Assembly: GCA_022826485.1 (NCBI GenBank)
Contig: JAJDUU010000025.1
Coordinates: 1 to 64,000 of the forward strand
DNA: 64,000 nt
Source of the DNA: Chloroflexota bacterium
Lineage (GTDB): Bacteria; Chloroflexota; UBA11872
Direction: 5' to 3'
Made by a program: the position numbers and the translations under genes. The notes below the pieces were generated by a model. That model had not been told where the DNA came from and ran no database searches. It saw nothing but the letters and a program-made list of their open reading frames with translations. Each line of letters starts with the position of its first letter. Position 1 is the stretch's first letter. Below, piece after piece: positions 7,313 to 63,163 of this stretch.

Positions 7313-9099
7313 GCGCCCAGGTCAAGGCTGCCACCCACGGCACAATCGCCGGCGTCCCGGGCGCCTGGACGACGTTCCGGCGCCTGCTGGGCTATGCCCG
7401 TCCGTATCGGGTGACCGGAGGGCTCGCCACGGTGGCGGCCGTCGGTGTCTCGGTGCTTGTGCTCGCCCGTCCCTGGCTCATGAAGCTGCTCGTCGACGAT
7501 GCATTTGGCGCGGGAAACGCGGAGCTGCTTGCCCCGGTGCTCATCGGCATGGCTTCGCTGGAGACGGCCGTGGCCACGCTGAGCTACGCCGCCGAGTATG
7601 GCTATGCCCGCGTCGGCGAACGCGCCATGAACGATCTGCGCGCGGGAATCCTGCATCACACGCATCGCTTGCCGCTCACCAGCCTGCGCCAACGACGGAC
7701 CGGCGACATCGTGGCGCATTTCACCTCCGACGCCACCGCGATCGGCGGGGTCTATCGGCACGTGTTCGCGGAGGGCGCTCTTCCGGGCCTTCGCGTGATG
7801 GCGGTGGTGGCCATCATTCTTGCGGTGGACTGGCGCTTTGGCCTGCTCGCCGTTTCCTTGATCCCGTTCTATGCCCTCCTGCCGGTGCTGCTGCAAGGCA
7901 GGGTCCAGGGGGCGAGTCACGGCGTGCAGGAGGCCATGGCGAGTCTGTCGGCGCTGCTCACCGAGTTCGTGGGAGGTGCCCGTGACCTCAAGGCCTTCAA
8001 TCGCGAGAATTGGGCCGCTGGGCGGCTGTGGGCCGAGGCGCGCCAGCTGTGGCGGGGGCGTTTGCGCCTAGTTGTGGTGCAGGGCGTGGCGGCGATCCAG
8101 ATGGTCGTCTACTGGGGGGCGTCGGCGGCGATTTGGGTCGTACTCGCCCCGCAGGCGGTCGATGGCCAGATAACCGTGGGGTTGCTGATCGCGCTGATCT
8201 TCTACCTCATGATGCTCGCAGAGCCGGTGCGCCTCATCGTGAATTCCTACGTCGAGATCCAGACGGCGCTGGGAGCGGCGCGTCGCGTCTTCGCCTTCCT
8301 GGACACGCCTGAAGAGCCGAGCGGGGACGTGGCCGCGTCGCCGCCGATCCGGGACGGTGAGGTGCGCTTCGAGCGTGTGGACTTCAGCTACACCGACGAC
8401 CAACCGGTCTTGCGCGAGGTCAGCTTCCACGCCACGCGCGGCACGACCCTGGCGGTCGTGGGACCGAGCGGCGCCGGCAAGACGACCCTGATCAACCTGC
8501 TGCTCCGCTTTGTCGATCCGGCATCTGGTCGCATCACCGTTGACGGCCACGACACCGGCGCCTTCGATCCCGCGGCGCTGCGCGGATCGTTCGGGGTCGT
8601 GTTCCAGGACCCCATGCTGTTCGAGGGCACGATTGCCGAAAACATCCACTTCGGTCGTGAGGAGCTAACCGAAGCGCAGGTCGAGCGCGCGGCCGTCATC
8701 GCCAACGCACACGACTTCATCACCGCCACCGAGCACGGCTACGTGACCCGCATCGGCGAGCGCGGCCTGCGGCTGTCGGGCGGCCAGGCGCAACGAGTCG
8801 CGATTGCCCGCGCCATCGCCGACGATCCGCGCATCCTCGTTCTCGACGAGGCCACGTCGGCGTTGGACGCCGAGTCCGAACGCCTAGCGCAGGAAGCGCT
8901 GGCCCGCGCCTCGCAGGGTCGAACGACCATCGTCATCGCCCACCGGCTCGCCACCGTGCGACGCGCCGACCTGATCGTGGTGCTCGATGAAGGCCGCGTG
9001 CTCGATACCGGTCGTCACGAGGAGCTCTACGCGCGGTGCGATCTGTACCGGCGGCTCTGCGATCTGCAGTTCGTGCAGCCCGATTCCGCTTCGGATTAG
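7309..9099 (+). CDS. ABC exporter half-transporter 2 (membrane domain plus ATPase)
   Basis: The protein has 596 residues, with the same architecture as its upstream partner and strong paralogy (shared RRTG(E/D)(V/I)VAHF, ARE/DIKAFNR-like, ANAHDFITA, IGERGLRLSGGQAQRVAIARAI). Motifs: GPSGAGKTT, VFQDPMLF, LSGGQ, LVLDEATSALD, IAHRLATVR. Both halves keep the Walker B Glu and the signature. So this is not the degenerate-site kind of heterodimer, and both ATP sites look competent. It starts inside the stop codon of the preceding gene. Confidence 0.92.
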   Translation: MSAQVKAATHGTIAGVPGAWTTFRRLLGYARPYRVTGGLATVAAVGVSVLVLARPWLMKLLVDDAFGAGNAELLAPVLIGMASLETAVATLSYAAEYGYARVGERAMNDLRAGILHHTHRLPLTSLRQRRTGDIVAHFTSDATAIGGVYRHVFAEGALPGLRVMAVVAIILAVDWRFGLLAVSLIPFYALLPVLLQGRVQGASHGVQEAMASLSALLTEFVGGARDLKAFNRENWAAGRLWAEARQLWRGRLRLVVVQGVAAIQMVVYWGASAAIWVVLAPQAVDGQITVGLLIALIFYLMMLAEPVRLIVNSYVEIQTALGAARRVFAFLDTPEEPSGDVAASPPIRDGEVRFERVDFSYTDDQPVLREVSFHATRGTTLAVVGPSGAGKTTLINLLLRFVDPASGRITVDGHDTGAFDPAALRGSFGVVFQDPMLFEGTIAENIHFGREELTEAQVERAAVIANAHDFITATEHGYVTRIGERGLRLSGGQAQRVAIARAIADDPRILVLDEATSALDAESERLAQEALARASQGRTTIVIAHRLATVRRADLIVVLDEGRVLDTGRHEELYARCDLYRRLCDLQFVQPDSASD

Positions 9100-32400: not shown

Positions 32401-32539
32401 GGGCGACGGTACCCAAGGTTGCCGAGGCCGCCTATTCTATGCGGCTTCGCCCGTGAAGGGAGTCTATGGGCTCAACGGCTCAGCGAGAACCTGCACGGAC
32501 GCCGGGCGCCCGTCGCCAAAGAAATCAGGCGCCCGGACC

Positions 32540-32587
32540 TGGTACCCCCGGTAGGAATCGAACCTACAACCTTCGGATTAAGAGTCC
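32540..32587 (-). tRNA. 3' half of a tRNA-Lys(CTT) gene, displaced attachment-site remnant
   Basis: On the minus strand, the sequence runs from the anticodon stem (GGA) through loop CTCTTAA with anticodon CTT. It continues through variable loop AGGTT, a perfect T-arm (GTAGG-TTCGATT-CCTAC), the acceptor 3' strand CGGGGGT, discriminator A and encoded CCA. Upstream of the GGA, the first two stem positions no longer pair, and no D-arm or matching ACCCCCG 5' acceptor strand is in place. A 3' half broken exactly at the anticodon stem is the classical scar of an integrase that targets tRNA genes. The complete tRNA should lie at the other end of the element, beyond this window. Confidence 0.8.
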
Positions 32588-33906: not shown

Positions 33907-36651
33907 CTACGCCCGCACCTTCGGTAGATGAGACTGTTGAGCTGACAGTGTGTGCGGGGCGAGCAGGACATCACCAGCCCTGATCGCCTCAATCAGACGA
34001 GCTTGGTTCTCAAGTTCTTGCTGCGCTTGGGGTGGCAGTGAGGCGCGGAATTTGTCGATGTCCGCAAAGATGGCCGAAGCGCCACTAGAGTCCCCGCAGT
34101 ACGCCAGGATGACAGCATACTGTGCGTTGATCGGAATGAGGTGCCCGAGCAGATTGTACTCGTTGACCACCGGGAGAAGAACCTCTTCCATGAAACACCG
34201 CGCCTCAAGAGCGTCACCCAGCAGGCCGATCAGTTCGTCCACGATTTCCTGGCCGACCTTCACGAGAGACGTGGGAGCGTGAGCAACTTGGTAAAGCTTG
34301 AAGGCATTGAACCAGTGCAACGCCCCACCTCCTCCCAACGAATGGTTGATCACACCGACCAAGTACAGGCTATCTGCAAGATGTTTCAACATCTTGCTGT
34401 CGGTTGCATTCGTGCCCAGGCGTTCGACGACCGCACGCCGGCTTTTGCCAACTAGCCACGCAAACGTGAGCCCGAGGCGCGTAAGGTATCGGTCGCATAC
34501 CCCCTGTGCAACGGGAAGCGCCAGCTCGTCATTGCCACAGTCATGGAGAGCCAATGCAAAGGTGTAGTCGACGACTAGGCGAGCCGCCCCTCCTGCATCG
34601 ACGGCCTGATACAGGCGGGTGGCCTGGCCTAGATCTCTGCGGTGTCCGGCGATGGCGATGCGCTTGGTGGCAATTCGCGCACGTGCCTCGACTTCGGCCT
34701 GTACAAACTCTGCCAGCGCTTCCATCTCCAAAAGATATTGCTCCGCCGCTGCACAGTCCGACCTGATGAGGCTCGCAAAGGCCAGCCCGTCGTAGGCCCA
34801 GAATCGGTCATCTGCGGATTGTGCCTGGTCCGCGGCAAACGCTTCGAGCAAGCCCCTAAACTCATGCTCAAGCCCAAGTTCGATGAAGAACTCGTCGGTG
34901 GAGAGATCAACAAGTTCTTCAACGTGGCCAGTTTGTGGTAAGAGCCGGTACGTCAGCAATGCGCGCTTGGCGTCGGGCACCTCCCTGATCGAGTCGATCA
35001 ATATGGCTCTGAGCCGCTGAGCCGAGTCTCGGAGTGTGCCAGGCTCCAACTCCTCTCGCGCGTTGATCGCAAGCATTCGGAAGGCGTCGTGCAGCTGCAC
35101 TTGGCCCGCTTGTAGTTGGCTAACGATCCCGAGTTCGATGAGAGCACTGAGCCGGTTGGCAGCGACTGCTCGGGTAACTCGGAGGGTGTCCGAGACGAGG
35201 CGAAGTGACTCCTCGTGCGTCAACGGGACCGTAGCCAGGCTGAGGACAGCGGAAATCTGACGATCTAGTTCTGTGCCGGCACCAAACGCATCTGCCAAGA
35301 TTGCACGCTGAGGCACCGACCCCACGTGCTCGTTCTCTTCACAAGCGGTGCAAAAGGCAGCTGCGTCTCCTCCGTACTCACTGGCCGTGATCGATGCTGC
35401 GCCCCGGACGTAAAGGGGAAGACCTCCGGTCAGCGCTCGTAGGCGCTCGGCCGTCCTTGCATTGATCGGCACGCCCTGACTTGAGCACTCCGCGGCGATT
35501 GCTGGCAAGGGCCACCCACGGAGTTCGATCGGCCTGACACTGAGTCGGGCTGCCACCGTGCTGGTGGATGCTGCAGGTTGGGCGAGAAAGAGGAATCGAA
35601 GTGCAGGGGCCGCCCGCACAACTGCCACCACCTCGTCCGCGGCAACGTCCTGTGTGTTGTCCACGATGACTAAGGCTGTAAGGCCCTTTAGCTCCACGAG
35701 CCTGCCGAGTGTCCTCAGCGAGTCAATCCCGCTCGCTCCTGGCAGAAGGACAGTGGCGAGCGACTCCCTATCGCCGTCGAAAACTCGGGGCGCAAGCTCG
35801 CGGGAAAGTGCCGCAGCGAATGAACCAGGAATGGCATCGACCGCGTCTAGGTAAGCAAGCGTCCCTTCCTGGTGGATTGCCTGCTGCGCAGCCCATGAGG
35901 TCTTCCCGCTTCCCGAGACCCCAACCACGAGCAGTGTTCGCGCTTCCGATCCGAGGTCCGGTTCACATTCCTGCGGCCGATACGGCGACGGCGGGACAGG
36001 CAGGTCATGAATCTCGAACACCATCTGTTCAAAGAGCTCTGGCAACTGCGTCAGCGCGATTTCGTGCGTGGAGTATGGAGGCGTGCCACTTGCGGCCTGC
36101 TGCATTGCTGCGGCGAGCTTGGCAACGAGGGTCTCGGGTCTCAGCAGTCCGGCGGGAATTCCATCCGCTTGTCCCGCGCACCAGTCGTAGGCTGCGGAGA
36201 TGCTCTCCCAGGCCGGGGGAAGGGCCGGCCGGCTCGTCTCGAGCTGCCCGTGTTCGAACCCGGGTGCCCTGTAGTGAAAGTCGTCCGGCCAGCACTGGAT
36301 TTCCTTCAAGAGCGCGGCGCTGGGAGCGACGTTTGACGCTATGAGAAAGTCGGCTCGCCCTACGCGTCGGCCTGACACGTGCTCAGTCCTCAGCTTGGCA
36401 AAGCGTTCAAGCGCACTCGCTACGTCGCTGGGCTGCAGCGGAACGGATCGGCTTTTGACCTGTACATACAGCACCCCATCGGGCCAGTAGATCTCCACAT
36501 CCTCGTCGGTTTCGACCCGAATTCTCTCGCTTGCCATCTTCGCCATACGCAGGAGGCATCCCGCGGCAAACAGATGCTGGTAGAGAAATCCGCGGTGGAC
36601 ACCCTCAATGCGGGCGAGTTGACCCTGATCGAGCACGATCGGCTTAGGCAT
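33907..36651 (-). CDS. Avs-like STAND ATPase with N-terminal nuclease domain
   Basis: The protein has 914 residues. The N-terminus (RGFLYQHLFAAGCLLRMA, then VRVETDEDVEIYWPDGVLYVQVKSR about residues 46-69) fits a PD-(D/E)xK nuclease of the DUF4297/Cap4 kind: Asp-x-Glu then Gln-Val-Lys. A P-loop ATPase follows (GVSGSGKTS about residue 245, LVIVDN about 328, LTGGLPLYVRGAAS as the NB-ARC/NACHT-like GLPL). The C-terminal 450 residues are helical repeats suited to target sensing. This is the architecture of antiphage STAND proteins, in which ligand sensing drives oligomerisation and nuclease activation. It is single-gene and GC is lower than the core. Exact family uncertain. Confidence 0.72.
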   Translation of the reverse strand: MPKPIVLDQGQLARIEGVHRGFLYQHLFAAGCLLRMAKMASERIRVETDEDVEIYWPDGVLYVQVKSRSVPLQPSDVASALERFAKLRTEHVSGRRVGRADFLIASNVAPSAALLKEIQCWPDDFHYRAPGFEHGQLETSRPALPPAWESISAAYDWCAGQADGIPAGLLRPETLVAKLAAAMQQAASGTPPYSTHEIALTQLPELFEQMVFEIHDLPVPPSPYRPQECEPDLGSEARTLLVVGVSGSGKTSWAAQQAIHQEGTLAYLDAVDAIPGSFAAALSRELAPRVFDGDRESLATVLLPGASGIDSLRTLGRLVELKGLTALVIVDNTQDVAADEVVAVVRAAPALRFLFLAQPAASTSTVAARLSVRPIELRGWPLPAIAAECSSQGVPINARTAERLRALTGGLPLYVRGAASITASEYGGDAAAFCTACEENEHVGSVPQRAILADAFGAGTELDRQISAVLSLATVPLTHEESLRLVSDTLRVTRAVAANRLSALIELGIVSQLQAGQVQLHDAFRMLAINAREELEPGTLRDSAQRLRAILIDSIREVPDAKRALLTYRLLPQTGHVEELVDLSTDEFFIELGLEHEFRGLLEAFAADQAQSADDRFWAYDGLAFASLIRSDCAAAEQYLLEMEALAEFVQAEVEARARIATKRIAIAGHRRDLGQATRLYQAVDAGGAARLVVDYTFALALHDCGNDELALPVAQGVCDRYLTRLGLTFAWLVGKSRRAVVERLGTNATDSKMLKHLADSLYLVGVINHSLGGGGALHWFNAFKLYQVAHAPTSLVKVGQEIVDELIGLLGDALEARCFMEEVLLPVVNEYNLLGHLIPINAQYAVILAYCGDSSGASAIFADIDKFRASLPPQAQQELENQARLIEAIRAGDVLLAPHTLSAQQSHLPKVRA

Positions 36652-36664
36652 GTCAGTCGTCTTT

Positions 36665-36677
36665 ACTCAACTTGAGT
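36665..36677. promoter_or_regulatory. Palindrome upstream of the STAND gene
   Basis: actcaa-c-ttgagt is a perfect inverted repeat 14 bases before ATG 36651. A second palindrome (gaatcc-tcggaa-ggattc) lies at about 36682-36699. The first could be an operator overlapping the leader, but no dedicated regulator is adjacent. Confidence 0.35.
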
Positions 36678-36746
36678 GCTCGAATCCTCGGAAGGATTCC
36701 AGCAACTCGCCGTCTTCACGAGCACGTCTCTAGGTGCAGTTCTCAC

Positions 36747-37549
36747 CTAGATTGCAGGAGAGATCTGAACAACCTGGGCACCAGAGCGCCATAGGGTAGC
36801 GGCTAGGCTCTTGAGGGTACCGCGGCGAGGAGTCTTGGGGCTGAGGCCGCCACCCAGCAGCGGTGCAGGCCCCGCGCGCCGCGCCCCGTCTTCATACCCG
36901 GCATCGCCCCACACACGCGTTTCGGCGCCGTGCAGTAGATGCCGCACTTGCGTGATGTCCGCCAGGTTGGCTGGCGTTGTCGCCACGCTGTGCACCAGCC
37001 CCGTGGCCGCGTCCACTCCGATGTGCGCTTTCATCCCCAAGTACCACTGGTTGCTCTGCTTCACCTGACGCATCTCCGGGTCCCGCACCTGGGCACAGTT
37101 CTTCGTCGACGCCGGCGCGTCGAGGATGGTCGCGTCCACGATCGTGCCTTCCCGCAGCCCCTGCGCCGCCAGGTTCTGGGTGATCTCCGCCAGCAGCCCC
37201 TCCCCCAACTGGTGCCGTTCCAGCAGGTGCCGGAAGTGCAGGATCGTCGCCTCGTCGGGGCGGGGGCTTCGGGCCGTCAGCCCCACAAACCGCCGCACCG
37301 CCACGCTGTCGTAGACCGCGTCTTCCATCGCGGGGTCACTGAGGTTGTAGTACAGCTGCACGCAGTTAATCCGCAGCAACAGGCCCAGCGGCTAGGGCGG
37401 CCGGCCGCGTGCGCCGGTGGGGTAGACCGGGCGATTGCACGTTTCCGCGCCCACGGCATCAGCGCATCCATGCGGTGGAAAGAGCGCTCCCGCCGCGTCT
37501 GGCGCGACTGCCCGTCATACTCCACGTCGGCAAATGTGCGCGGCGGCAT
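36747..37549 (-). pseudogene. IS5-family transposase remnant
   Basis: The N-terminal piece (MPPRTFADVEYDGQSRQTRRERSFHRMDALMPW) is read from ATG 37549. The frame then shifts near 37440 to RPVYPTGARGRPP. A TAG (37392-37394) falls where family members usually have Tyr in GRPPYPL. After it, LLLRINCVQLYYNLSDPAMEDAVYDSVAVRRFVGL, the first catalytic Asp (TIVDATIL) and WYLGMKAHIGVDA are intact. The frame is lost again after GDAGYED, so the terminal catalytic Glu region is missing. It is non-functional and has no convincing terminal inverted repeats. Confidence 0.85.
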
Positions 37550-38068
37550 CCCCTGGCCCTCACCGAGTGCCCGTCACGTGTGAGCATAGGCGCCGCCCCC
37601 AGCCGTCTAGCCTTTTTCGGAGGCTTCCTAGAGCCGACGCGTGGCACATGGTGGACTGTAGCTGGCACCCGACCAACTTGAGCCTACTGGTCAAGCGGCG
37701 CCGTCACTCTATTGCTTGTTTCTTCGAGCTGGCCTGGGCTGTGCGACGCGAAGTGGCTCGCGTCCCGACCCCAAGGTGCTGGGCTGAATTACGGAAACCT
37801 GGATTCCGGCGGGCGCCGTTCCCACCTACGGTTGGCTGTGACAGATCAAGGCCAACCGATGAAACGGCCCAGGCTCATTCGCACCGGCCGGTTGAGAGCC
37901 GACCCGCCAAGGAGTTCACCCGATGATCGACACACGACATCCTGGCAACGGTGCGCTTGGCTCCAGCAATGGAAAACGCCGATGGCCCGCAGCGCCTGAA
38001 CGGCGGAGCCGTCGAGGCCGACGTTGTGAAGCCGGGCCACCCGCTAGAGCGACGCTGGGATCCATGGC
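37550..38068. other. Non-coding stretch before the conjugation module
   Basis: No gene is supportable. It contains copy 1 of the 13-bp motif shared with 44.86 and 46.19 kb. Confidence 0.5.
37789..37801 (+). repeat. TTACGGAAACCTG motif, copy 1
   Basis: This 13-bp sequence occurs in the same orientation at 37789, 44858 and 46191, all within the integrase/conjugation segment. The flanks differ except for GAAT to the left and GAT to the right in copies 1 and 2. Confidence 0.7.
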
Positions 38069-41293: not shown

Positions 41294-41760
41294 ATCCGAG
41301 CCCTCGCAGTTCCAGCGACTGCTCCATACCCACGACCCCTGGCATCCCCAATCCTCGAGCTACCAACTCCCATGGGGTCCGAGCCCTCGCAGCTCCGGCG
41401 TCTGCGCCATGCCCACGACCCCTGGCATCCCCAATCCTCAAGCTCCGGTATCCCGTCAGGTCCGAGCCCTGGCAGATCCGGCGTCTGCGCCATACCCACG
41501 CCCCCTGGCATCCCCAAGCCTCAAGTTGTCGATTCCCGTGGGGTCCAAGCCCTCGCAGTTCCAGCGACTGCCCCATGCCCACAACCCCGGGGATCCCCAA
41601 TCCACGAGTTGTCGATTCCCGCTGGGTCCGAGCGCTGACAGGTCCGGCGCCTGTGCCATACCCACGACCCCTGGCATCCCCAAGCCTCCGGTTGTCGCTT
41701 CCCGTGGGGCCCCAGCCCCCGCAGCTCCGGTGTCTGCGCCATACCCGGTGCCCTGGGCGG
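41294..41760. repeat. Five and a half tandem units of about 83 bp
   Basis: Units begin tccgagccctcgcag (or a variant) at 41294, 41378, 41461, 41544, 41627 and a partial one at 41710. Lengths are 84, 83, 83, 83 and 83 bases. Each contains a ccatacccacgacccctggcatcccc-like core. The final partial unit runs into the 5' end of the replication-relaxation gene, whose first codons (cggcagctccaggtcctgcgtctgctctacacc) resemble the unit. Since 83 is not a multiple of three, the array is unlikely to be protein-coding. Confidence 0.8.
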
Positions 41761-46632: not shown

Positions 46633-47733
46633 ATGGCTCACATTCGCAAGCGCGGCCCCCGCCGCTGGGAGGTGTCCGTACACCTCGGCGGCGGCAAGCG
46701 CCGCTGGCGCTCGGTGCGCGGCACCAAGCGGCAGGCCGAACGCGTCGCCGCCCGCCTAGAAGAGGACGCGCAATCCGGGGCGCTCGTCGAACCCACCGCG
46801 GTCACCCTCGGGACGTACCTTGAGCGGTGGCTCGAAACCCATGTGCGCCTCCACAACGCCCCGCGCACCTACCAGGACTATCGCTATCACGTGCAGCGGT
46901 TTCTCCAACCCCGCTTGGGGCAGATCAAGCTCAGCCAGCTGCGCCCGCTCCACCTGCAGGAGCTCTACGTCGACCTCCGCCAGCAGGGCCACACGCGGAC
47001 GGTGGACTACGTCCACCAGGTCGTGCGTAAAGCCCTCAACGACGCGGTCAAGCTCCAACTGCTCTCGCGCAATCCGGCCCTGGCAGCGCGGCCACCACGG
47101 TCGCGGTCGCAGCCCGTGGACATCCCGAGCATTGAGGTCATCCGGGCGGCGCTCGCCACCATCCACGGCACCGATCTCGAATTGCCGATCCGCCTGGCCG
47201 TGACGACGGGCGTGCGGCCCGGTGAACTGGTCGCCCTACGCTGGCGCGACCTCGACCTTGAAACCGGCCGCGCGCAGATTCGCCAGACACTCCAACGCAT
47301 CACGGGCCAGGGCCTGATTTTCGCGCCGACGAAGACCCATCGCAGCACGCGAACCATCGCCCTCGACGCCACCGTCGTCGAGCAGCTCACCACACACCGG
47401 GCCGGCCAGGCGGCGCACCGGCAGGCCCTCGGTCCGCTCTATGACGACCAGGATCTCGTCTTCGCCCAGGCCGACGGGGGTCCGATCGACTCCCGCGTGA
47501 TGCTCGATCGATTTCAGCGGGCGCTCCATCGGGCGGGTCTCCCGTCGCTGACGATCAAGGACCTCCGCCACGTGCACGCCAGCATCATGCTCAGCGAGGG
47601 CGTGCATCCGCGGGTCGTCCAGGAGCAATTGGGTCACGCGAGCATTACGCTCACACTTGACACCTACTCCCACGTCACGCCCGGTATCCAGTCGGAGGCC
47701 GTGCAGCGGGTGGGCAAGGTCTTGGACGCCTGA
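46633..47733 (+). CDS. int: Tyrosine recombinase / integrase
   Basis: The protein has 366 residues. The N-terminal arm-binding region (MAHIRKRGPRRWEVSVHLGGGKRRWRSV) and SAM-like core-binding domain (TLGTYLERWLETHVRLHNAPRTYQDYRYHVQRFL) are followed by the catalytic domain. It carries Arg in TTGVRPGELVALRW, Lys in APTKTHRSTRT, DLRHVHASIML (box with Arg/His), LGHASITLTLDTYSHV (His and nucleophile Tyr). All active-site residues are present, so the enzyme should be functional. With the excisionase it would integrate and excise the element. The target could be the tRNA-Lys gene or a site with the 13-bp motif. Confidence 0.93.
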   Translation: MAHIRKRGPRRWEVSVHLGGGKRRWRSVRGTKRQAERVAARLEEDAQSGALVEPTAVTLGTYLERWLETHVRLHNAPRTYQDYRYHVQRFLQPRLGQIKLSQLRPLHLQELYVDLRQQGHTRTVDYVHQVVRKALNDAVKLQLLSRNPALAARPPRSRSQPVDIPSIEVIRAALATIHGTDLELPIRLAVTTGVRPGELVALRWRDLDLETGRAQIRQTLQRITGQGLIFAPTKTHRSTRTIALDATVVEQLTTHRAGQAAHRQALGPLYDDQDLVFAQADGGPIDSRVMLDRFQRALHRAGLPSLTIKDLRHVHASIMLSEGVHPRVVQEQLGHASITLTLDTYSHVTPGIQSEAVQRVGKVLDA

Positions 47734-53059: not shown

Positions 53060-53470
53060 ATGAGAGATTCGTCAAGTGATGCTATACGAAGTCGTATCCC
53101 CACTGAGTCCCAGGCTACCGGTCGCAACGCGCGTCTGGCGCTGCGTCTGCGCGAGACCCGTCGGGCTATGGGCTACACGCAGGCAACGCTCGCTGCGCGT
53201 GCCGGTCTAGCGCCAGCGGCCATTTCGCACTTCGAGAACGGTGTGCGTCGCCCCAGCGCCAAGAACTTGGAACGCCTGGCCGACGCTCTGTCGGTCAGTG
53301 TGGACTACCTGATGGATCGCGACGTTAGCGAGCGGACCACCAAGCCACAATTCCAAGCGGTGTTTCGGCACATGGCCGACATGAGTGACGAAGCACTGAT
53401 TGATCTCCAGAGGTTCAGCGAACGGCTAGCCGAGGTGGATCGGATGAAACGTGAATCCAGCGACCCGTAG
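53060..53470 (+). CDS. XRE-family transcriptional repressor
   Basis: The protein has 136 residues. The helix-turn-helix is LRETRRAMGYTQATLAARAGLAPAAISHFENGVRRPSAKNLERLADALSVSVDYLM. The C-terminal helix (MSDEALIDLQRFSERLAEVDRMKRE) is typical of repressors partnered with ImmA/IrrE proteases. It is divergent from the MBL/E2-E1-JAB/patatin operon and overlaps the protease gene by 20 bases. It probably represses both directions from the 60-base shared region. Confidence 0.9.
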   Translation: MRDSSSDAIRSRIPTESQATGRNARLALRLRETRRAMGYTQATLAARAGLAPAAISHFENGVRRPSAKNLERLADALSVSVDYLMDRDVSERTTKPQFQAVFRHMADMSDEALIDLQRFSERLAEVDRMKRESSDP

Positions 53471-54386
53471 AAACGCCGATCCGGAGTTGGCCGTCGACGC
53501 CGCGCGCGCCGTACTTCGCCAGCGTGCCGGTGATTCCACGCCAGTCGACGTTGTTGCCATCGCTGAGGGACTCGGCATAAAGCTAGAAGGAAGCACCAAC
53601 CTCGGCAGTTCGGCCTCTGGATGTCTGATGCTTGTTGGCACAACTTTCGGGATTCTGTTCAACACCTCGGTGACCAGTCCTGGCTATCGCCGATTCACAA
53701 TCGGTCATGAGCTCGGTCACCATCAGATGACGCACCATCGCCAAGTGCTCCTCGCCAACGGCCAGATGCACGTATCCCAGTCGGGCTTCGTATCGAATCG
53801 ATGGCACGAGTTGGAAGCCGATCACTTCGCTGCCGAACTGCTGATGCCCCGCGACCCGTTCAGCGCGGCGCTCGACCGCCGCACGCCCGGACTTGACGCC
53901 GTTAGGGAGATAGCTGATGAGTTTGAGACCTCGCTGACGAGTACGGCCATCCGCTTCGCAAAGCTGAGTTCCGAACCCGTCGCGGCAGTCGTGAGCCAAG
54001 GTGGCACCGTACGCTATTGCTGGGTCTCCGAGGCACTGAGCAACGTGCCCGGCATTGGACGTATCCCGATGCGACCCGACGATCCATTGCCCAGCACAGC
54101 GACCCTTTCGCTGAATTCGAACCCACAGAAGGTGCGGCGCGCGCACCGGGTTGCGGTGAATTGCCGATCCGACACGTGGTTTCCCAGGGCCTACGCGACG
54201 TTCGCGCTTCGAGAAGACGCCATTGGACTCGGATCGTACGGGCGAGTGCTCACCATCCTGACCGCCGATGACGTGCCGGATCCCGAGGAATACGACTCGG
54301 TACCACATCGCAGTTCGCGGACCGAGGACCCTTGGAGCGAGGGCTGGGGAACAGCCTCTAGAAGTGCCCGACGGAGTTGGCGCTAG
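53451..54386 (+). CDS. ImmA/IrrE-family (M78) metallopeptidase
   Basis: The protein has 311 residues and starts at GTG 53451 inside the repressor gene. The zinc motif FTIGHELGHHQM and the downstream Glu in LEADHFAAELLMPRD are intact. Members cleave a partner XRE repressor when triggered by DNA damage or other stress (ImmA of ICEBs1, IrrE of Deinococcus). Here the pair would switch on the divergent conjugation-phospholipase operon. The last about 120 residues (VSQGGTVRYCWVSEALSNVPG...) may sense the trigger. Confidence 0.9.
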   Translation: MNPATRRNADPELAVDAARAVLRQRAGDSTPVDVVAIAEGLGIKLEGSTNLGSSASGCLMLVGTTFGILFNTSVTSPGYRRFTIGHELGHHQMTHHRQVLLANGQMHVSQSGFVSNRWHELEADHFAAELLMPRDPFSAALDRRTPGLDAVREIADEFETSLTSTAIRFAKLSSEPVAAVVSQGGTVRYCWVSEALSNVPGIGRIPMRPDDPLPSTATLSLNSNPQKVRRAHRVAVNCRSDTWFPRAYATFALREDAIGLGSYGRVLTILTADDVPDPEEYDSVPHRSSRTEDPWSEGWGTASRSARRSWR

Positions 54387-54759: not shown

Positions 54760-57700
54760 ATGAGGTCCGGTGGTTCTTTCTCGGTGATGGAGGGTCAAAC
54801 TGAGGTGAGCACTGAAGTCGTGATCCGTGAAGGACAGGTGCTGACTGGCCCGCAGTTCAGTGAGCCGATGCGGGTGGAGACCGTTCGGACGAACGGAATC
54901 GGCTCCGTGGAGGCGGGGCTGGTTGGCCAGCGCACTGAGCGATTCCGTCGAGTGACCCTGACGTCGGCTGACATCGCCAGCGTCACCATCGCCGATCCCG
55001 TCCTCTCCTACGATGGCGACGGACGGCTCCTGCGACTTGGCCTCCACGCGTACTCCCTCGGCATCGCCCACGAGTTCGACCCGTACTTCGGCCTGTCCAT
55101 CTCCCGGGTCGACCCGTTGCCCCACCAGTTGGAGGCCGTCTACGACTACCTGCTCAAGCTCCCCAGCGTGCGGTTCCTGCTCGCCGATGACGCCGGTGCC
55201 GGCAAGACCATCATGGCCGGCCTGCTCATCCGGGAACTCAAGCTGCGGGGCCTAGCCGAACGAGTGCTCGTGGTGTGCCCGGCGAACCTGGCCTTTCAGT
55301 GGCAGCGAGAGCTCCGGGAGAAGTTCGACGAGCGGTTCTTCGTCCTGAAGGGCAGCGACATACGGGATCAGTTCGGCATCAACCAATGGCTCGAACAGCG
55401 GCAGGTCATTACGTCGCTTGACCTAGCCAAGCGGGACGACATCCTTCCCGGTCTGCGGCAGGTGCGCTGGGACCTGGTCATCGTCGACGAAGCTCACCGG
55501 ATGTCGGCGCGAGACGAGACGCATAAGAGCCAGCGCTACCGGTTGGGCGAACTGCTGCGGGACAGCGCCGACAACCTGCTGCTGCTGACCGCCACGCCTC
55601 ACAAGGGCGACCCGCAGAACTTCACCCTCTTCCTCCAACTCTTGGATCAGGACGCCTACGCCGACGTGAAGTCCATCCGCCAGGCGATGGCGCGCAGGCG
55701 GGCGCCGTTCTACCTGCGCCGGACCAAGGAGGCGATGGTCTACTTCCCGGAGCGCCAGCCGGACGGCGAATGGGCAGCCAAGCCCGTATTCACCAAGCGC
55801 ATCACGCACACAGCCGGCTTCACCATGGACGGCGCGGAGTTCGAGTTGTACCAAGCGATTACGCGGTTCGTGAAACGTCAGAGCGCCCGCGCCGCGGCCC
55901 AGGGCGACGACCCTCGCGCCCGCGCGGTCGGCTTCCTCATGTCCCTTTACCAGCGCCGACTCGCCTCCAGCGCCCATGCCATGCGTCGCTCCCTTGAGAA
56001 TCGGGCCAACCGCTTGGAAGAGGGCCTCAAGCAGGCTCAAGACTTGGCGCGGACGGCACCACCGGACCTGCCCGACTGGGAGGACCTGGAAGAGTTTGAG
56101 GAGACCGAGCGCGAGCATCTGGAGCGGTTGCTGGAGGCAGTCACGCTAGCCGGGAACGCCGATGAGGTCCGCAGGGAGGTTGCCGAGCTCCGACAACTCG
56201 CGGCACAAGCCGAAGCCATCGAAGCATCGGGTGAGGAGGCCAAGCTCACCCGCCTCAACGAGATCATCCGAGAGCAGGGCTTCTTCGACGACCCCGACCA
56301 ACGGCTGCTCATCTTCACCGAGTTCAGGGACACCCTCGATCATCTGGTACAGAGGCTGACGTCCTGGGGCTTCCGCGTAGGCTCCATCCACGGCGGCATG
56401 AGGCCCGGCTCGCGGGATGATCCGGGTTCCCGCCTCTACGTCGAGCAGCAGTTCCGGGACGGCGCCATTCAGGTGTTGGTGGCGACCGAGGCAGCGGGCG
56501 AGGGCATCAACCTCCAGTGCTGCCACATCCTCTTCAACTACGACATCCCCTGGAACCCCAATCGGCTGGAGCAGCGTATGGGTCGCATCCACCGCTACGG
56601 CCAGAGATTCGACTGCCTCATCTTCAACTTCGTCGCCGCGAACACAATCGAAGGGCATGTGCTCCAGCGGTTGTTGGGAAAGCTCCAGGAGATTCGGGAC
56701 GCTCTGGACGACGACGCCGTGTTCAACGTGGTCGGCGAGGTGCTGCCCGCCGCGCAGATAGACCGCGTCTTTCGGGACTTCTACGCAGGAAAGTTGGAAG
56801 AGGCGGACCTGGAGGATCGCCTGCTGCGGGACGTGGACGAAGGACGCTTTCGGGAAATCTGCCAGACCGCGTTAGAGGGCCTCGCCGCCAAGAAGCTCAA
56901 TCTTGAAATGCTCGTGGAGCGCCGCGCTCGCGCCCAAGAACGTCGGGTCGTGCCTGAGACGATTGCTCGCTTCATGACCGCGAGCGCACGGGACGCCGGG
57001 TTGACCCTGGATCCGGTGTACCGCCTGTCCCACACGTTCCAGCCGGGGCGGACTCCCCCGGCGCTGAGGCAATACGAACGGGAGCCGGACTGGAGCCTCC
57101 CCGATCTCGTCGCTCGCTATCCCCGTCTCTCGACGGACCGGAACACGGCGGAGCAGCACAGCCTGGAGTGGGTCACGCCGGGTCATGCGCTGTTCGAAGC
57201 TCTGCGGCGTCACTGCCTCGAAATCGGCCAGGACGCCTTTGCCAAGGGCGCCTGCTTCCATTCGCTCGACCACGAAACCCCGGCGCGAATCGACTTCTAC
57301 CGAGCCCGCGTGGTGGACGGGCTGGGGCGCATCGTCCACGAGCGGCTGTTCGCCGTCGAACTCGCCGATGGCGCCCTACCTCATCTCCGCGAGCCGGACG
57401 TACTGGGCAATCTGAGCCCTGCCGATCTGGGTCCTGACGACCTGCCCTCAGTCGCGGCAAGCCCCGAGGTGACCGATTGGCTGAGCGAGCACGCGCTTAC
57501 CCCCTTCATCGAAGAAGTCAAGGCCGAACGAGTGACCGAAATCGACCGCATCGCGGATCACGTGGAGCTATCGCTGACCGAGGTGCTTCAGCGTATCGAC
57601 CAAGAGATCGGCCGCGCCTCGGAGGACGTGGAGCAGCAGATCATGGGCGCCGAGGGGCGACTTGCTCAGGCGGATGCCCGGCATGGTGAAGCGATGGCCC

Positions 57701-58242
57701 GACGGGAGCGGCGGCGACGCGAGTTGACCCAGCAGCGGGCGCTAACCCTTCAGGGCGTCGAACGGCTCGCCAGCGTATTGGTCCTACCCCACCCCGAGCG
57801 CGAGACCCCCGAAGTGAAGCGGCTGCGTCCCAACCCGGAAACTGAGATGACCGCAATGCGGGTGGTCATGGACTACGAAGAGGCCCAGGGACGCCAAGTC
57901 TTCGACGTGCACGAGAAGAACCTGGGCTACGACGTGACCAGCCTCGACGTGCAATCCGGCCAGCTACGTCTCATTGAAGTGAAAGGCTTGGCCGCCGAGA
58001 CGGGCACGATCCTGCTCACGCCCAACGAGCGGCGCGTGGCCGAGGACCGCCGGGACTGCTACTGGCTCTACGTCGTCACCAACTGCGCCGCCGAGCCGCA
58101 GTTGCAGGAACCCATAGAGGACCCCGCACGCTTCCCGTGGCACGAGGTCACCAAGGTGCAGCACTATTGGCTGGAAGTGGACGCGATGACTCAGCCTGTG
58201 CAGGTGAGGGAGGAGCAGGCGGATTACGAGGTGTCTCCCTAA
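54760..58242 (+). CDS. SNF2-family helicase with C-terminal DUF3883
   Basis: The protein has 1,160 residues. Helicase motifs: LLADDAGAGKTIMAGLL (Walker A, about 143), VVCPANLAFQW (Ia), LVIVDEAHRMSA (DEAH, about 242), LLLTATPHKGD (III), and in the second lobe LIFTEFRDTLD, ATEAAGEGINLQCC and QRMGRIHRYGQ (VI). A coiled-coil region follows, then a DUF3883-like nuclease-fold end (VMDYEEAQGRQVFDVHEKNLGYDVTSLD...LRLIEVKG, with Asp and Glu-x-Lys). Such helicases occur in DISARM (DrmD) and DUF1156-linked defence loci. High GC. ATG 54787 is an alternative start. Confidence 0.88.
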   Translation: MRSGGSFSVMEGQTEVSTEVVIREGQVLTGPQFSEPMRVETVRTNGIGSVEAGLVGQRTERFRRVTLTSADIASVTIADPVLSYDGDGRLLRLGLHAYSLGIAHEFDPYFGLSISRVDPLPHQLEAVYDYLLKLPSVRFLLADDAGAGKTIMAGLLIRELKLRGLAERVLVVCPANLAFQWQRELREKFDERFFVLKGSDIRDQFGINQWLEQRQVITSLDLAKRDDILPGLRQVRWDLVIVDEAHRMSARDETHKSQRYRLGELLRDSADNLLLLTATPHKGDPQNFTLFLQLLDQDAYADVKSIRQAMARRRAPFYLRRTKEAMVYFPERQPDGEWAAKPVFTKRITHTAGFTMDGAEFELYQAITRFVKRQSARAAAQGDDPRARAVGFLMSLYQRRLASSAHAMRRSLENRANRLEEGLKQAQDLARTAPPDLPDWEDLEEFEETEREHLERLLEAVTLAGNADEVRREVAELRQLAAQAEAIEASGEEAKLTRLNEIIREQGFFDDPDQRLLIFTEFRDTLDHLVQRLTSWGFRVGSIHGGMRPGSRDDPGSRLYVEQQFRDGAIQVLVATEAAGEGINLQCCHILFNYDIPWNPNRLEQRMGRIHRYGQRFDCLIFNFVAANTIEGHVLQRLLGKLQEIRDALDDDAVFNVVGEVLPAAQIDRVFRDFYAGKLEEADLEDRLLRDVDEGRFREICQTALEGLAAKKLNLEMLVERRARAQERRVVPETIARFMTASARDAGLTLDPVYRLSHTFQPGRTPPALRQYEREPDWSLPDLVARYPRLSTDRNTAEQHSLEWVTPGHALFEALRRHCLEIGQDAFAKGACFHSLDHETPARIDFYRARVVDGLGRIVHERLFAVELADGALPHLREPDVLGNLSPADLGPDDLPSVAASPEVTDWLSEHALTPFIEEVKAERVTEIDRIADHVELSLTEVLQRIDQEIGRASEDVEQQIMGAEGRLAQADARHGEAMARRERRRRELTQQRALTLQGVERLASVLVLPHPERETPEVKRLRPNPETEMTAMRVVMDYEEAQGRQVFDVHEKNLGYDVTSLDVQSGQLRLIEVKGLAAETGTILLTPNERRVAEDRRDCYWLYVVTNCAAEPQLQEPIEDPARFPWHEVTKVQHYWLEVDAMTQPVQVREEQADYEVSP

Positions 58243-60194
58243 TGCCATGGAATGACAGCCTACTGAAGGAACAGAAGACGGCAGCGTCTCATATAGGCAA
58301 CCACGCTAGGTTGTTAGCTGGACCAGGCACGGGTAAGACGCTCACGCTGACCCGACACATCAGCTTTCTAATCATTGAGAGAAAGCTAACACCCAACAGT
58401 ATTCTAGCTATTACGTTCACGCGGGCAGCAGCCAGAGAACTTCAACAACGGGTCGTAGATGAGCTTGGCGACAACCGAAATCCTCGAATCTCAACTTTGC
58501 ATTCCTTTGCTCTCCGCCAACTCCTAAAGAACGCCACACAAATCACTGACTTACCACAACCTCTCCAGATTGCAGATGACTGGGAGGAGCATAATATAAT
58601 CTTACCAGATCTAAGGTCACTGTGTGATCTATCTCGCATTAGTGAAGCTCAGGAACTCTTAAATCAGTTGTCGGCAGACTGGCAGAGTCTCACTGCAGAT
58701 GAGTCGGACTGGAACAAGAGATTCCCTAATCCAGCCTTTCTTGGTGCGTGGCGGGAACACCGGAGAGTCTACGGCTACACATTGAGGTCAGAGCTGGTCT
58801 ATCAGCTTAAAAAAGCTCTTGAACAGCGTGGGGATTTTGAACTTGAGAGTCCGATTGAGCATCTCCTCGTTGATGAATACCAGGACTTGAATCGGTGCGA
58901 CCTTGCGGTTGTGGAGCGAATTGCATCGCGCGGGACTGAGTTATTCATTGCGGGCGATGATGACCAGAGCATCTATGGCTTCCGCAAAGCTGATCCCGCA
59001 GGCATACGTCGATTTCCGGAGGATTACTCGGGAGCAACTGACCTTGAGCTGAAGGTATGTAAGCGATGTGACAGAAGTATTCTGGATCTTGGTCTATTTG
59101 TTGCCCGGCAGGACCATCGACGAGTTGACAAGACTATAGAAACTGAGGACGGAAGGCCAGAAGGGGAGGTAGCCCTGCTGCGATTTGACGGCCAATTTGC
59201 GGAAGCTACAGGCATCGCCAACCTATGCGCCAGCCTTATGGAGGGACGAGGGTTACAACCCGATGACATTCTGATCCTTCTCCGTTCCGACCGAAACGGG
59301 GCTTTCTCTCGGCCAATCAGAGAGAAACTGGAAGAAGCGAACATAAAGGTATCGGCGACGGATGCGACTAATCCGTTAGACTCAAGGCAAGGAAGAGCCT
59401 TTCTTGCCTTCTTGCGATTAGCTGTGAGAAATGAAGACTCGCTCGCGTGGCGAACACTCCTTCAGGTTTGGTGTCAAGGCGTTGGTGAGAAAGCCATTGG
59501 TGCCGTCTATGACCTTGCTCGCAGTCGTGACGAGAGCTTTGCTCAAACGATAATATCCGCTTATTCCAACAAGGACATTCTACCGACGAACCATCGCTCT
59601 CGCCTCTTCGGGGGAATTGATAAGGCGATGAACCAGCTTAAGGCTATGATTCCAGATGAGACTGATATAGAATATGCTTCGCCTGGCGAGTTGATAGATG
59701 TAATCCAATCTGCCGCAGGGTGCATTATTTCTGACGGAGAAGAACAAGCTGCTGTCCTATCAAAAGTCAAGCAGTCTGCTAGGGCTCTCGAAGTGATTTC
59801 TATTGAGGAGTTAGTCCGTACAATAGGAATCTCGAGTGAGGACATTGAGCAGGTACTAGAAGTAGGGAAAGTTAATATCTTGACTATGCACCGTGCTAAA
59901 AGACTTACCGCAAAGGCGGTTATCGTGGCTGCGGCCGAGGATCAATATGTTCCAGGTAGGGCTACTGGCGAAGAAATAGGAGACGAACGGCGCCTGCTAT
60001 ACGTGTCGCTTACCCGTGCGAGGCATCACCTCTTCATCACTTACTGTGACAAGAGGACGGGCCAGCAGATGCACACAGGTCGTGATCGCGGAAGAGCTGC
60101 ACGGTCCCTGACCCAGTTCCTCATTGATTGCCCATACACACCTAACGACGGCCGAGTGTTCGTCTCCGAATACTGTAAGAGGGCAGTCCCATAA
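58242..60194 (+). CDS. UvrD/PcrA-type superfamily 1 helicase
   Basis: The protein is about 650 residues from ATG 58242, overlapping the TAA of the SNF2 gene. Motifs: LLAGPGTGKTLTLTRHI (I), ITFTRAAARELQQR (Ia), LLVDEYQDLN (II), FIAGDDDQSIYGFRKAD (III), VNILTMHRAKRLTAKAVIV (V) and RRLLYVSLTRARHHLFI (VI). It unwinds DNA 3' to 5'. Its base composition is about even AT/GC by eye, far below the SNF2 and DUF1156 genes on either side. It therefore looks like a later insert into that operon. Confidence 0.9.
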   Translation: MPWNDSLLKEQKTAASHIGNHARLLAGPGTGKTLTLTRHISFLIIERKLTPNSILAITFTRAAARELQQRVVDELGDNRNPRISTLHSFALRQLLKNATQITDLPQPLQIADDWEEHNIILPDLRSLCDLSRISEAQELLNQLSADWQSLTADESDWNKRFPNPAFLGAWREHRRVYGYTLRSELVYQLKKALEQRGDFELESPIEHLLVDEYQDLNRCDLAVVERIASRGTELFIAGDDDQSIYGFRKADPAGIRRFPEDYSGATDLELKVCKRCDRSILDLGLFVARQDHRRVDKTIETEDGRPEGEVALLRFDGQFAEATGIANLCASLMEGRGLQPDDILILLRSDRNGAFSRPIREKLEEANIKVSATDATNPLDSRQGRAFLAFLRLAVRNEDSLAWRTLLQVWCQGVGEKAIGAVYDLARSRDESFAQTIISAYSNKDILPTNHRSRLFGGIDKAMNQLKAMIPDETDIEYASPGELIDVIQSAAGCIISDGEEQAAVLSKVKQSARALEVISIEELVRTIGISSEDIEQVLEVGKVNILTMHRAKRLTAKAVIVAAAEDQYVPGRATGEEIGDERRLLYVSLTRARHHLFITYCDKRTGQQMHTGRDRGRAARSLTQFLIDCPYTPNDGRVFVSEYCKRAVP

Positions 60195-60223
60195 TCCCCG
60201 CTACCTGCAAACGCCTGGCTGAG

Positions 60224-63163
60224 GTGGATTTTCCCATTGCGGAGGCGTCGCGGCATGCGGCGCGGGAGAAGTCGATTCGGCATGGGCATCCCTCGACGCT
60301 GCATCTGTGGTGGGCGCGGCGGCCGCTGGCGTCGTCGCGGGCTGTGCTCATGGCGCTATTGCTACCCGATCCGTGTGACGAGCACTGTCCGCCGGCGTTC
60401 AAGGCGCGTGCGCGGGAGACACTGTTGGCAATGCGAACTCGACCGGGTGCGTGGGACGAGCAGGTGGAGACTGACGAAGGGCTGCGGCGCGTATTGCTCC
60501 GGTTCATCGCCGACTTCGCCAACTGGGACAACGCGGCCAAGCCGGAGCATCTGGAAGCGGGCCGCTCGTTGATTCGCGCCGCCCACCCGGAGGAAACGCC
60601 GCTGGTGGTCGATCCGTTTGCGGGGGGCGGCTCAATTCCCCTGGAGGCGCTGCGGTTGGGCTGTGAGGCCTTCGCCAGCGACCTCAATCCCGTTGCTTGC
60701 CTCATCCTCAAGGTGATGCTGGAGGACATCCCAAGGCACGGGCCGGGTCTGGCCGACGAGTTGCGCCGCGTGGGCGCAGAGGTAAAGGCCAAGGCGGAGA
60801 CCGAACTCGCCGACCTATATCCCACCGACCCGGACGGCGCAACACCCATCGCCTATCTGTGGGCGCGGACCGTGCGGTGCGAAGCGCCCAACTGCGGGGC
60901 GGAGATTCCCCTGATGCGCTCCATGTGGCTGTGCCGGAAGCCCAACCGCAAGTGGGCGCTGCGCTCCAACGTGGTGCACGATGACAGCACTCCTCGCGTG
61001 GAGTTCGAGATCTTCGAGCCGGAGTCCGATAGCGAGGTAGCCATTGGGACCGTGACAAGGGCCAGGGCGACATGCGTCTGTTGCGGCACGGTGCTATCTC
61101 CTGAGCGAGTACGGTCGCAACTTGCCGCTCAGCGCGGCGGCGCGGACGCGGTGTTCGACGAGCAAGGCAACCGCGCGGGCGGAGCGCAAATGACGGCGGT
61201 GGTGACGCTCAAGCCAGGTGAAAGAGGGCGGCACTACAGACTGCCTACGGAGGCCGACTACGCGGCTGTCCGATTGGCGCAGGAGCGTGTCGCGAAGATG
61301 TTGGACGAGTGGGAACGCAACGGGAGACAGGGGCTCTGCCCCGTGCCGGACGAGCCTTTACCGCCCATCGGGACACTGGGATTCAGAGTCCAGAGGTACG
61401 GGATGCTCCAATGGGGAGATTTGTTCACGGCGCGGCAGAAGGCGACATTGGTAGGACTATCTCAGAATATTCATCAATCAGGTGAACCTACTCAACCTAT
61501 ATCTGCTATTGCTCTGAACAGAACTGCAGACGGAAGCGCATCAGTCTCCAGCTGGCTTGCTTCGGGAGAAGAATTTAAGCATGTATTTGCCCGCCAGGCA
61601 CTCCCTATAGTTTGGGACTTTGGTGAGTCGAACTATCTCGCCGAAGCTTCCAGGACTTGGATTAGCGCGACCAACTCAATCGCGAGGGTCGTCGAGAACA
61701 GTACGTCGGCGTCAAAGGTCGGCCAAGCCGACCAAGCTGACGCTATGAACCACCCACTGCCTGACCAATCTGCAGAAGTCTGGTTCACAGACCCCCCATA
61801 TTACGACGCAATCCCTTACGCCGACCTATCAGACTTTTTCATCGTCTGGCTCAAGCGTACACTGCCAGACCATCCTCTGCTACGAGATACTCTTGACTCC
61901 AGTAATTTACTGTCTCCCAAAACTCGCGAGATAGTACAGGACGAGAACAAGCGGGACGATGGTCGTCCAAAAGATCGCCACTGGTTTGAGGAGACGATGG
62001 CAGGTGCCTTTGCCGAAGGACGTCGCGTTCTGAACGCCGATGGCATCGGCTCAGTCGTCTTCGCCCACAAGACCACCGAAGGATGGGAAGCTCTGCTGTC
62101 GGGGATGATCCGTGGCAACTGGACCATCACCGGATCCTGGCCGATCGCCACCGAGATGGGCTCGCGCCTGCGCGCCCGCGATTCCGCCGCCCTCGCCACC
62201 AGCGTCCACCTCGTCTGCCGCCCGCGACCTGAGGATGCACATGTAGGTGACTGGGCCGACGTTCTCCGCGAGCTGCCGGAGCGGGTCGCTGACTGGATGC
62301 AGCGGCTCCAAGGCGAAGGCGTCCGTGGGGCGGATCTAGTCTTCGCCTGCGTTGGGCCTGCGCTGGAGATATACAGCCGCTACCGCGCAGTGGAGACGGC
62401 GGACGGCCGGGAGGTAGGCCTGCCGGAGTACCTCGAAAAGGTGTGGGAGGTCGTTGGGCGCGAGGCGCTTGAGCAGGTGCTGGGCACGGCCGAGGCCCAG
62501 GCCCGCAATGGCGCGGCAGGCGCGCTGGAGGAAGACGCCCGCCTGACCGCGCTGTTCCTCTGGACTCTGCAGAGCACGTCGGAAGGCGCGTTCTCACAAG
62601 ACGGTGCCGCCCCCAATGACGGAGAGGACGAAGCGCCGCGCAGGAAGTCGTCGGGCTACAGCCTGCCTTTCGACGTGGCGCGGCGGTTCGCCCAGCCGCT
62701 GGGCATCCACCTCGACGACTGGGAGTCGCGCATCATCGAGACGAAGAGAGGCGTCGTGTACATGCTCCCTGTCACTGAGCGCGGGAAGCAGCTGTTCGGC
62801 GAGTCGGGCGCCGCCGCCGTAGCCGACGAGATGGAGGCGGCAGCGAACGTTTCTCCGCAATTGAGCCTCTTTCCCGACGAGCCACCCGCCGTCCGGGGAC
62901 GAGCGCGGAGGCGGAGCAGGTCATCGACGCCGACTAGCGGCAATGCAGAGCTTAGGCTGTCGGCGACCACGCTGGACCGGGTGCATGCTGCCATGCTGTT
63001 GCAGGCGTCGGGTCGCAGCCAAGCCCTGCGCAACCTGCTGCGCGCCGAGCAGGAGCGCGGATCCGACTTCCTGCGCCTCGCCAACGCGCTGACGGCGCTC
63101 TACCCACGGGGAAGCGAGGAGAAGCGGCTGCTGGATGCCATGCTATTGGCGGTACCTAGGTAA
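60224..63163 (+). CDS. DUF1156 DNA adenine methylase (defence-associated)
   Basis: The protein is about 979 residues from GTG 60224. DUF1156 signature: REKSIRHGHPSTLHLWWARRPLASSRAV. AdoMet motif DPFAGGGSIPLEALRLG about residue 129; catalytic TDPPYYDAIPYADLSDFF about 522. A Cys-rich zinc patch (CEAPNCGAEIPL, CVCC) lies between. Family-like residues (CKRLAEV) continue upstream of the GTG, but no start codon precedes them before a stop at 60176, so the natural start may have been lost. Bases 61440-62050 are visibly AT-richer than the rest. DUF1156 proteins modify DNA in multi-gene antiphage loci with DUF499 ATPases. Confidence 0.88.
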   Translation: MDFPIAEASRHAAREKSIRHGHPSTLHLWWARRPLASSRAVLMALLLPDPCDEHCPPAFKARARETLLAMRTRPGAWDEQVETDEGLRRVLLRFIADFANWDNAAKPEHLEAGRSLIRAAHPEETPLVVDPFAGGGSIPLEALRLGCEAFASDLNPVACLILKVMLEDIPRHGPGLADELRRVGAEVKAKAETELADLYPTDPDGATPIAYLWARTVRCEAPNCGAEIPLMRSMWLCRKPNRKWALRSNVVHDDSTPRVEFEIFEPESDSEVAIGTVTRARATCVCCGTVLSPERVRSQLAAQRGGADAVFDEQGNRAGGAQMTAVVTLKPGERGRHYRLPTEADYAAVRLAQERVAKMLDEWERNGRQGLCPVPDEPLPPIGTLGFRVQRYGMLQWGDLFTARQKATLVGLSQNIHQSGEPTQPISAIALNRTADGSASVSSWLASGEEFKHVFARQALPIVWDFGESNYLAEASRTWISATNSIARVVENSTSASKVGQADQADAMNHPLPDQSAEVWFTDPPYYDAIPYADLSDFFIVWLKRTLPDHPLLRDTLDSSNLLSPKTREIVQDENKRDDGRPKDRHWFEETMAGAFAEGRRVLNADGIGSVVFAHKTTEGWEALLSGMIRGNWTITGSWPIATEMGSRLRARDSAALATSVHLVCRPRPEDAHVGDWADVLRELPERVADWMQRLQGEGVRGADLVFACVGPALEIYSRYRAVETADGREVGLPEYLEKVWEVVGREALEQVLGTAEAQARNGAAGALEEDARLTALFLWTLQSTSEGAFSQDGAAPNDGEDEAPRRKSSGYSLPFDVARRFAQPLGIHLDDWESRIIETKRGVVYMLPVTERGKQLFGESGAAAVADEMEAAANVSPQLSLFPDEPPAVRGRARRRSRSSTPTSGNAELRLSATTLDRVHAAMLLQASGRSQALRNLLRAEQERGSDFLRLANALTALYPRGSEEKRLLDAMLLAVPR

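Follow-up and report, generated by a model that had tools for sequence, protein, structure and literature searches.

A Predicted Nuclease–STAND–TPR Protein, Avs-Like in Architecture, at the Edge of a Chloroflexota tRNA-Lys Island

Does a single gene at the edge of a mobile element in a Chloroflexota bacterium (UBA11872) encode a compact antiphage receptor? The DNA analyzed here, called the window, is a stretch of 64,000 nt from contig JAJDUU010000025.1 of assembly GCA_022826485.1. The original prediction, made from the letters alone, read one of its genes as a nuclease–STAND ATPase with a helical-repeat sensor, similar to the Avs proteins. The predicted open reading frame of 914 codons was found exactly and without an internal stop; its strand, which had not been given, is the minus strand. 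The protein is referred to as P0001, and the features discussed below are listed in Table 1.

Table 1. Features of the P0001 gene and of the surrounding island, in window coordinates
Feature	Position	Strand	Basis
Attachment-site copy, 3′ part of tRNA-Lys(CTT), left end of island	32537..32587	(-)	51-bp repeat, 100%
Nuclease–STAND–TPR protein P0001	33907..36651	(-)	intact ORF, 914 aa
C-terminal tail, ends PKVRA-stop, SEC-C zinc finger missing	33907..33966	(-)	comparison with L002
TPR-like helical array, putative sensor, residues 541-895	33967..35031	(-)	mostly high pLDDT; least conserved domain
Winged-helix region, residues 441-535	35047..35331	(-)	profile alignment to same region of PH0952; model
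MHD-like motif L-H521-D522-A-F-R525	35077..35094	(-)	H, D, R invariant 16/16; aligned with PH0952 vHDmvR
STAND NTPase core, residues 228-440	35332..35970	(-)	AAA_22 matches and fold match
GLPL motif, residues 409-413	35413..35427	(-)	G410 and P412 invariant
Walker B-like strand ending D331-N332 (DN, not D[D/E])	35656..35676	(-)	invariant 16/16
P-loop, residues 241-253	35893..35931	(-)	SGxGKT invariant 16/16
Linker, residues 131-227	35971..36261	(-)	alignment and AlphaFold model
Cap4/HamA/LmuA-type PD-(D/E)xK nuclease domain, residues 1-130	36262..36651	(-)	Pfam, PADLOC, PDB profile and fold matches
Nuclease motif D51-x-E53 ... Q64-V-K66	36454..36501	(-)	invariant in all members with the domain
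Leader inverted repeat, 12-nt arms, 4-nt spacer	36677..36704	.	92% complementary
Inverted repeat, 8-nt arms, end of transposase remnant	36729..36751	.	perfect complementarity
Transposase remnant (DUF772/DDE_Tnp_1), just upstream of P0001 gene	36747..37379	(-)	Pfam 3.7e-13 and 2.8e-15
Tyrosine integrase of island	46633..47733	(+)	Phage_integrase 2.5e-24
CapH-like and CapP-like regulators	53060..54386	(+)	PADLOC 2.6e-19 and 1.6e-54
HmaA and HmaB	54760..63163	(+)	PADLOC HmaA 1.4e-170, HmaB 2.2e-116

Domain Anatomy and Conserved Residues

Sequence comparison and structural modeling established the domain anatomy of P0001, its conserved active and switch residues, and a gradient of conservation along the chain. 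In the AlphaFold model, an alpha-beta nuclease is followed by a P-loop domain and then by a winged-helix region, and helices are arrayed over approximately residues 540–890, in agreement with the long helical C-terminus that had been predicted. The full-length model reached medium quality (pLDDT 72, pTM 0.48, from a six-row alignment), all structural models being built on 5 or 6 sequences; residue conservation was read from an alignment of 16 relatives. No Avs, Cap4, Pfam, NCBIfam, or PADLOC (2023 release) model spans P0001, and a PDB search with its single sequence returned nothing relevant.

The predicted PD-(D/E)xK nuclease motif was located as DVEIYWPDGVLYVQVK at residues 51–66. H19, G21, Q25, H26, E47, D51, E53, Q64, and K66 are invariant in all 15 relatives that have this region among the 16 aligned. 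Similarity to known defense nucleases is weak at the sequence level. The Pfam model Cap4_nuclease matches P0001 at 4e-4, under its curated cut-off, and PADLOC matches to LmuA (3.8e-6) and HamA (2.6e-5) are confined to about residues 19–88. A comparison with Cap4 and DUF4297 profiles, suggested as a check, gave a weak but consistent result, with a Cap4/DUF4297-type nuclease in 13 of 16 members at E values up to 1 (best 5.7e-6). The top three PDB matches of the nuclease profile were HamA (E 0.012), LmuA (0.025), and Cap4 (0.17), each weak singly but consistent jointly. When the model of the nuclease domain was ranked by fold, HamA came first and Avs3 (8dgc) second, with Cap4, LmuA, and HerA-DUF4297 within the first twelve, at moderate scores for this domain alone (best E 0.005). 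Defense nucleases are therefore among the best structural and profile matches of the N-terminal fold, as the original prediction implied.

The P-loop ATPase with a GLPL-type motif was likewise recovered: P0001 reads GVSGSGKTSW at residues 244–253 and TGGLPL at residues 408–413, and both motifs are conserved across the 16 relatives. AAA_22 matches all 16 members (best 2.4e-8), and by fold the core matches 6mfv, a plant resistosome, ORC, and EfAvs5. All 16 relatives share S246, G247, G249, K250, T251, D331, N332, P412, H521, D522, and R525 without exception. P0001 thus contains the P-loop, Walker B, GxP motif, and winged helix with MHD of a STAND NTPase, except that its Walker B reads DN; the invariance of this DN suggests that ATP hydrolysis may be weak. 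The STAND ATPase PH0952 (6mfv), which has a TPR sensor, is both the top fold match of the full-length model (E 3.8e-8) and the top sequence-profile match of the NTPase part (0.0015), LKVHDAxR being aligned with vHDmvR; the plant resistosome and EfAvs5 also match the full-length model by fold. The helical array resembles PH0952 and Rap TPR proteins in fold, and TPR_MalT and TPR_19 matches occur in relatives.

Compared to relatives outside the Chloroflexota, identity falls from 47% in the nuclease to 35% in the STAND NTPase and 29% in the TPR repeats. Such a gradient would be expected if the repeats faced a changing target; a generally faster drift of the repeats would look the same.

It is very improbable that P0001 instead regulates transcription or stress responses as a STAND protein like MalT or IniR, with an N-terminal domain that binds DNA but does not cleave it. 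One relative matches TPR_MalT, and one from E. coli matches the NCBIfam model IniR (7e-7, residues 326–529), but the latter, weak match covers just the ATPase core. Furthermore, none of the catalytic residues D, E, Q, and K varies, no other domain is as conserved as the nuclease, and the search for a LuxR-type DNA-binding end was negative. The gene is also mobile, patchy in distribution, and adjoins defense systems. The ATPase and TPR part groups best, by profile as well as by fold, with PH0952, a STAND–TPR protein of solved structure, and not with housekeeping regulators. The antiphage STAND logic originally proposed therefore holds as an architecture, as a nuclease-like N-terminal fold and an ATPase distinct from housekeeping regulators, the two points on which it could have failed, both came out in its favor.

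The Island and the Distribution of the Gene

The gene had been placed just inside a tRNA-bounded element. No complete tRNA was found in the window by ARAGORN or Rfam, and it was at first suggested that the element was not tRNA-bounded; this view was overturned when comparison with congeneric genomes exposed a tRNA-derived repeat. The 51-bp attachment-site copy is repeated exactly within a complete tRNA-Lys at 75.9 kb of the contig (G000:C48:75897-75975), and the left flank resembles all five congeneric genomes only up to window position 32587. These repeats bound an island of 43.3 kb at tRNA-Lys(CTT), in which the P0001 gene is the first gene. Three congeneric genomes (G001, G003, and G005) have an intact tRNA-Lys adjoining the same flank, and the other two (G002 and G004) carry different insertions of about 7 and 24 kb at the same site. 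A tRNA-Lys integration site is thus documented in a Chloroflexota genus, holding islands of different sizes (~43, 24, and 7 kb), one of them defense-rich.

Third-position GC of the P0001 gene is 0.66, compared to mostly 0.8–0.9 in flanking genes, and this difference marks the gene as foreign to its flanks. The palindromes predicted in its leader are present as two hairpins, modestly beyond chance. Downstream in the island, the gene for HmaC (6.5e-91) lies just outside the window (G000:C48:63825-66605) and completes the Hma system, a putative new defense system (PMC8565338). Other cargo includes a T4CP/mad8-like ATPase and a replication-relaxation protein.

Several further observations concern the island. 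No obvious CBASS cyclase adjoins the capH and capP genes. A serine/threonine kinase-like gene (G000:C48:66638-68125) resembles the PD-T4-6 and mad6 defense kinases. At the start of the replication-relaxation gene (41295–41746), an 83-bp unit is repeated in tandem in 5.4 copies with 80% matches; as 83 is not a multiple of 3, each copy shifts the reading frame. A 25-nt direct repeat (core TTACGGAAACCTG) occurs three times, at 37784, 44853, and 46186, across the integrase end of the island, and these repeats are possible Xis or Int arm-type sites.

The P0001 gene is present in a single copy in its genome and was not found in 23 other genomes of the same order, nor did a protein search reveal another full-length copy among 400 genomes spread over the Chloroflexota. 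In a separate scan, the whole-family alignment gave 308 matches in the 400 phylum genomes; these were dismissed, as the listed ones, apart from the window gene, were almost entirely to SEC-C and mostly in frames of SecA-like length. The sole close relative is L002, from a Chloroflexi metagenome-assembled genome, which is 66% identical over residues 99–912. Full-length homologues from Pseudomonadota and Streptomyces are about 35% identical to P0001, with 97% of the length aligned. Searching plasmids with tblastn matched 54 records, of which 24 cover 80% or more of the length with ~33–37% identity, in Pseudomonas, Rhizobium, Agrobacterium, Bosea, Salipiger, Shinella, Klebsiella, E. coli, and Streptomyces; these relatives are annotated merely as "SEC-C" or "ATP-binding" proteins. 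In E. coli, 64 of 5426 complete genomes have a match, nearly always chromosomal, and the matches form two groups that are ~72% identical to each other at the DNA level. No description of the family was found in the open-access library that was searched for SEC-C defense proteins and for the accessions of five relatives.

The family is established as mobile, and some of its members reside in defense islands and prophages. One set of E. coli copies lies divergently beside GajA (4e-240) and GajB (3e-194) in an integrase-bearing island (as in L022). Another set is cargo of a lambdoid prophage (as in L024), with a DUF977 gene on one side and hokD on the other; the same protein is present in several IMG/VR contigs. 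In Rhizobium Mim1, ietA and ietS lie a few genes upstream of the relative. DNA methylase and HNH nuclease genes are directly upstream of it in Salipiger, and type I restriction genes are just downstream in a Streptomyces viral contig. Gabija and ietAS act on phages.

Since many relatives are plasmid-borne, the target may be plasmids rather than phages. The protein would then be a weapon in conflicts among plasmids, integrative elements, and prophages, with the same mechanism but another trigger, and not a host antiphage system. The relatives on large plasmids of Pseudomonas, Rhizobium, Agrobacterium, Klebsiella, and Streptomyces, those carried as prophage cargo, and the location of the window copy in an integrative island are in line with this reading. 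However, antiphage systems also commonly travel on such elements, and the neighboring Gabija and ietAS are themselves active against phages, so we regard it as unlikely.

Some records were set apart from this survey. MT836905 (L019, "Bacteriophage sp.") carries an Agrobacterium-like copy but was set aside as a phage record, as its TraG-type gene makes a plasmid origin probable. When viral contigs were scanned with the Bosea and P. mandelii proteins, no match appeared. On a Klebsiella plasmid (L007, ~7985–8408), an open fused frame adjoining GajAB joins about the first 84 nuclease residues to a SEC-C tail, the NTPase and repeats being deleted, and in about 20 Klebsiella and Raoultella plasmids the match is restricted to the nuclease start.

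The SEC-C Tail and the Integrity of the Gene

A SEC-C zinc finger ends 11 of the 16 relatives. At the point where P0001 reads PKVRA-stop, L002 continues. The DNA of the two genes diverges right after the PKV codons and can be aligned again slightly downstream; SEC-C was therefore probably lost from P0001 by a short indel event, as judged from this alignment. SEC-C is also missing in the Streptomyces relatives and in one Rhizobium relative, and its distribution requires three changes on the tree, such as a single gain plus two losses. PADLOC matches to PDC-S12 and CBASS E2 within the family were rejected, as they reflect the SEC-C tail alone. The CBASS E2 and E1-E2 models match this tail at the C-termini of L005, L010, and L020, which indicates that SEC-C fingers recur in other defense proteins.

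Could the window copy be a decaying, end-truncated, and non-functional relic? A change immediately ahead of its stop codon removed SEC-C, and a transposase remnant abuts its promoter side. Furthermore, its closest relative, L002, has lost the nuclease domain and lies at a contig end, with a gene for an IstB-like ATPase, of a transposition type, just upstream. Such decay is nevertheless quite unlikely for P0001, as the frame is open through its 914 codons, no key residue has been lost, and the Streptomyces relatives and one Rhizobium relative lack SEC-C as well. Pairwise dN/dS against L002 is ~0.3, a value to be read with the caveat that L002 may itself be decaying.

Proposed Mechanism and Comparison with Known Systems

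On the combined weight of sequence, models, and genomic context, P0001 is probably a single-protein, NLR-like receptor against phages (or other mobile elements) that acts as a ligand-gated nuclease. In the resting state, the STAND module would hold ADP, gripped by the P-loop and the histidine–aspartate pair of the MHD motif, and would keep the N-terminal Cap4-type nuclease off. Binding of a ligand made by an invading phage or plasmid to the TPR-like array would lead to nucleotide exchange and oligomerization, by which the nuclease domains would be brought together. The gathered domains would then cut double-stranded DNA, and either the invader would be cleared or the infected cell killed. The trigger and outcome are inferred, and gating, oligomerization, and DNA cutting are expected from what has been established for STAND proteins, Avs, and Cap4.

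A broader proposal, possible but doubtful, is that P0001 belongs to a separate and widespread family of compact NLR-like receptors, in which a Cap4-type nuclease is run by a STAND–TPR module, the SEC-C finger is gained and lost as a regulatory or targeting element, and the DN Walker B favors nucleotide exchange and not hydrolysis. Two sharp mechanistic questions arise from the removable finger and from the DN Walker B. Intact natural copies in E. coli chromosomes and prophages make protection, trigger, and mechanism directly testable in E. coli.

Compared to known systems, P0001 shares individual parts with several. First, its nuclease resembles those of Cap4, LmuA, HamA, and HerA-associated DUF4297 proteins, with the G-F-x-Y-Q helix and the D...QxK motif in common. 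However, these nucleases are controlled by SAVED domains or by SMC-like or helicase/translocase partners, while that of P0001 would be controlled by the STAND–TPR module of the same chain. No SAVED domain matched P0001 or its relatives; similarity to Lamassu or Hachiman did not extend to the whole effector, and the scanned neighboring genes included no LmuB or HamB. Second, PH0952 is alike over the NTPase, winged helix, and TPR, including the HD motif, but its matched chain has no nuclease effector. Third, the TIR-, Sir2-, and nuclease–STAND–repeat proteins of P4-like satellite hotspots (Rousset et al. 2022, PMC9122126) are built alike, with a single mobile gene that encodes an effector, a STAND NTPase, and C-terminal repeats of TPR or other types. 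As effectors, that paper names TIR, Sir2, Mrr_cat, and BpuSI_N, and neither SEC-C nor DUF4297 occurs in its text.

The closest comparison is with Avs (AVAST), especially Avs3, which likewise has an N-terminal Cap4-type nuclease, a central STAND NTPase, and a C-terminal repeat sensor in one chain. P0001 has the architecture of Avs1-5, in which a nuclease or Sir2 effector, a STAND NTPase, and a repeat sensor form a single chain. Avs proteins themselves recognize terminase, portal, or another phage protein and assemble into an active oligomer. No Avs family among the PADLOC and NCBIfam models matched P0001 or its 16 relatives at E values up to 1, and P0001 is, as predicted, much shorter, with 914 residues compared to ~2,000 modeled residues of Avs3; P0001 is therefore not a member of Avs1-5. 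The term "Avs-like" thus stands for the logic of the protein and not for membership. Avs3 also differs in its repeat region, and a SEC-C tail is frequent in the P0001 family. Collectively, these comparisons point to a real and apparently unnamed family of Avs-like nuclease receptors whose underlying logic is already known, and which would add to bacterial NLR-like immunity at roughly half the length of Avs3.
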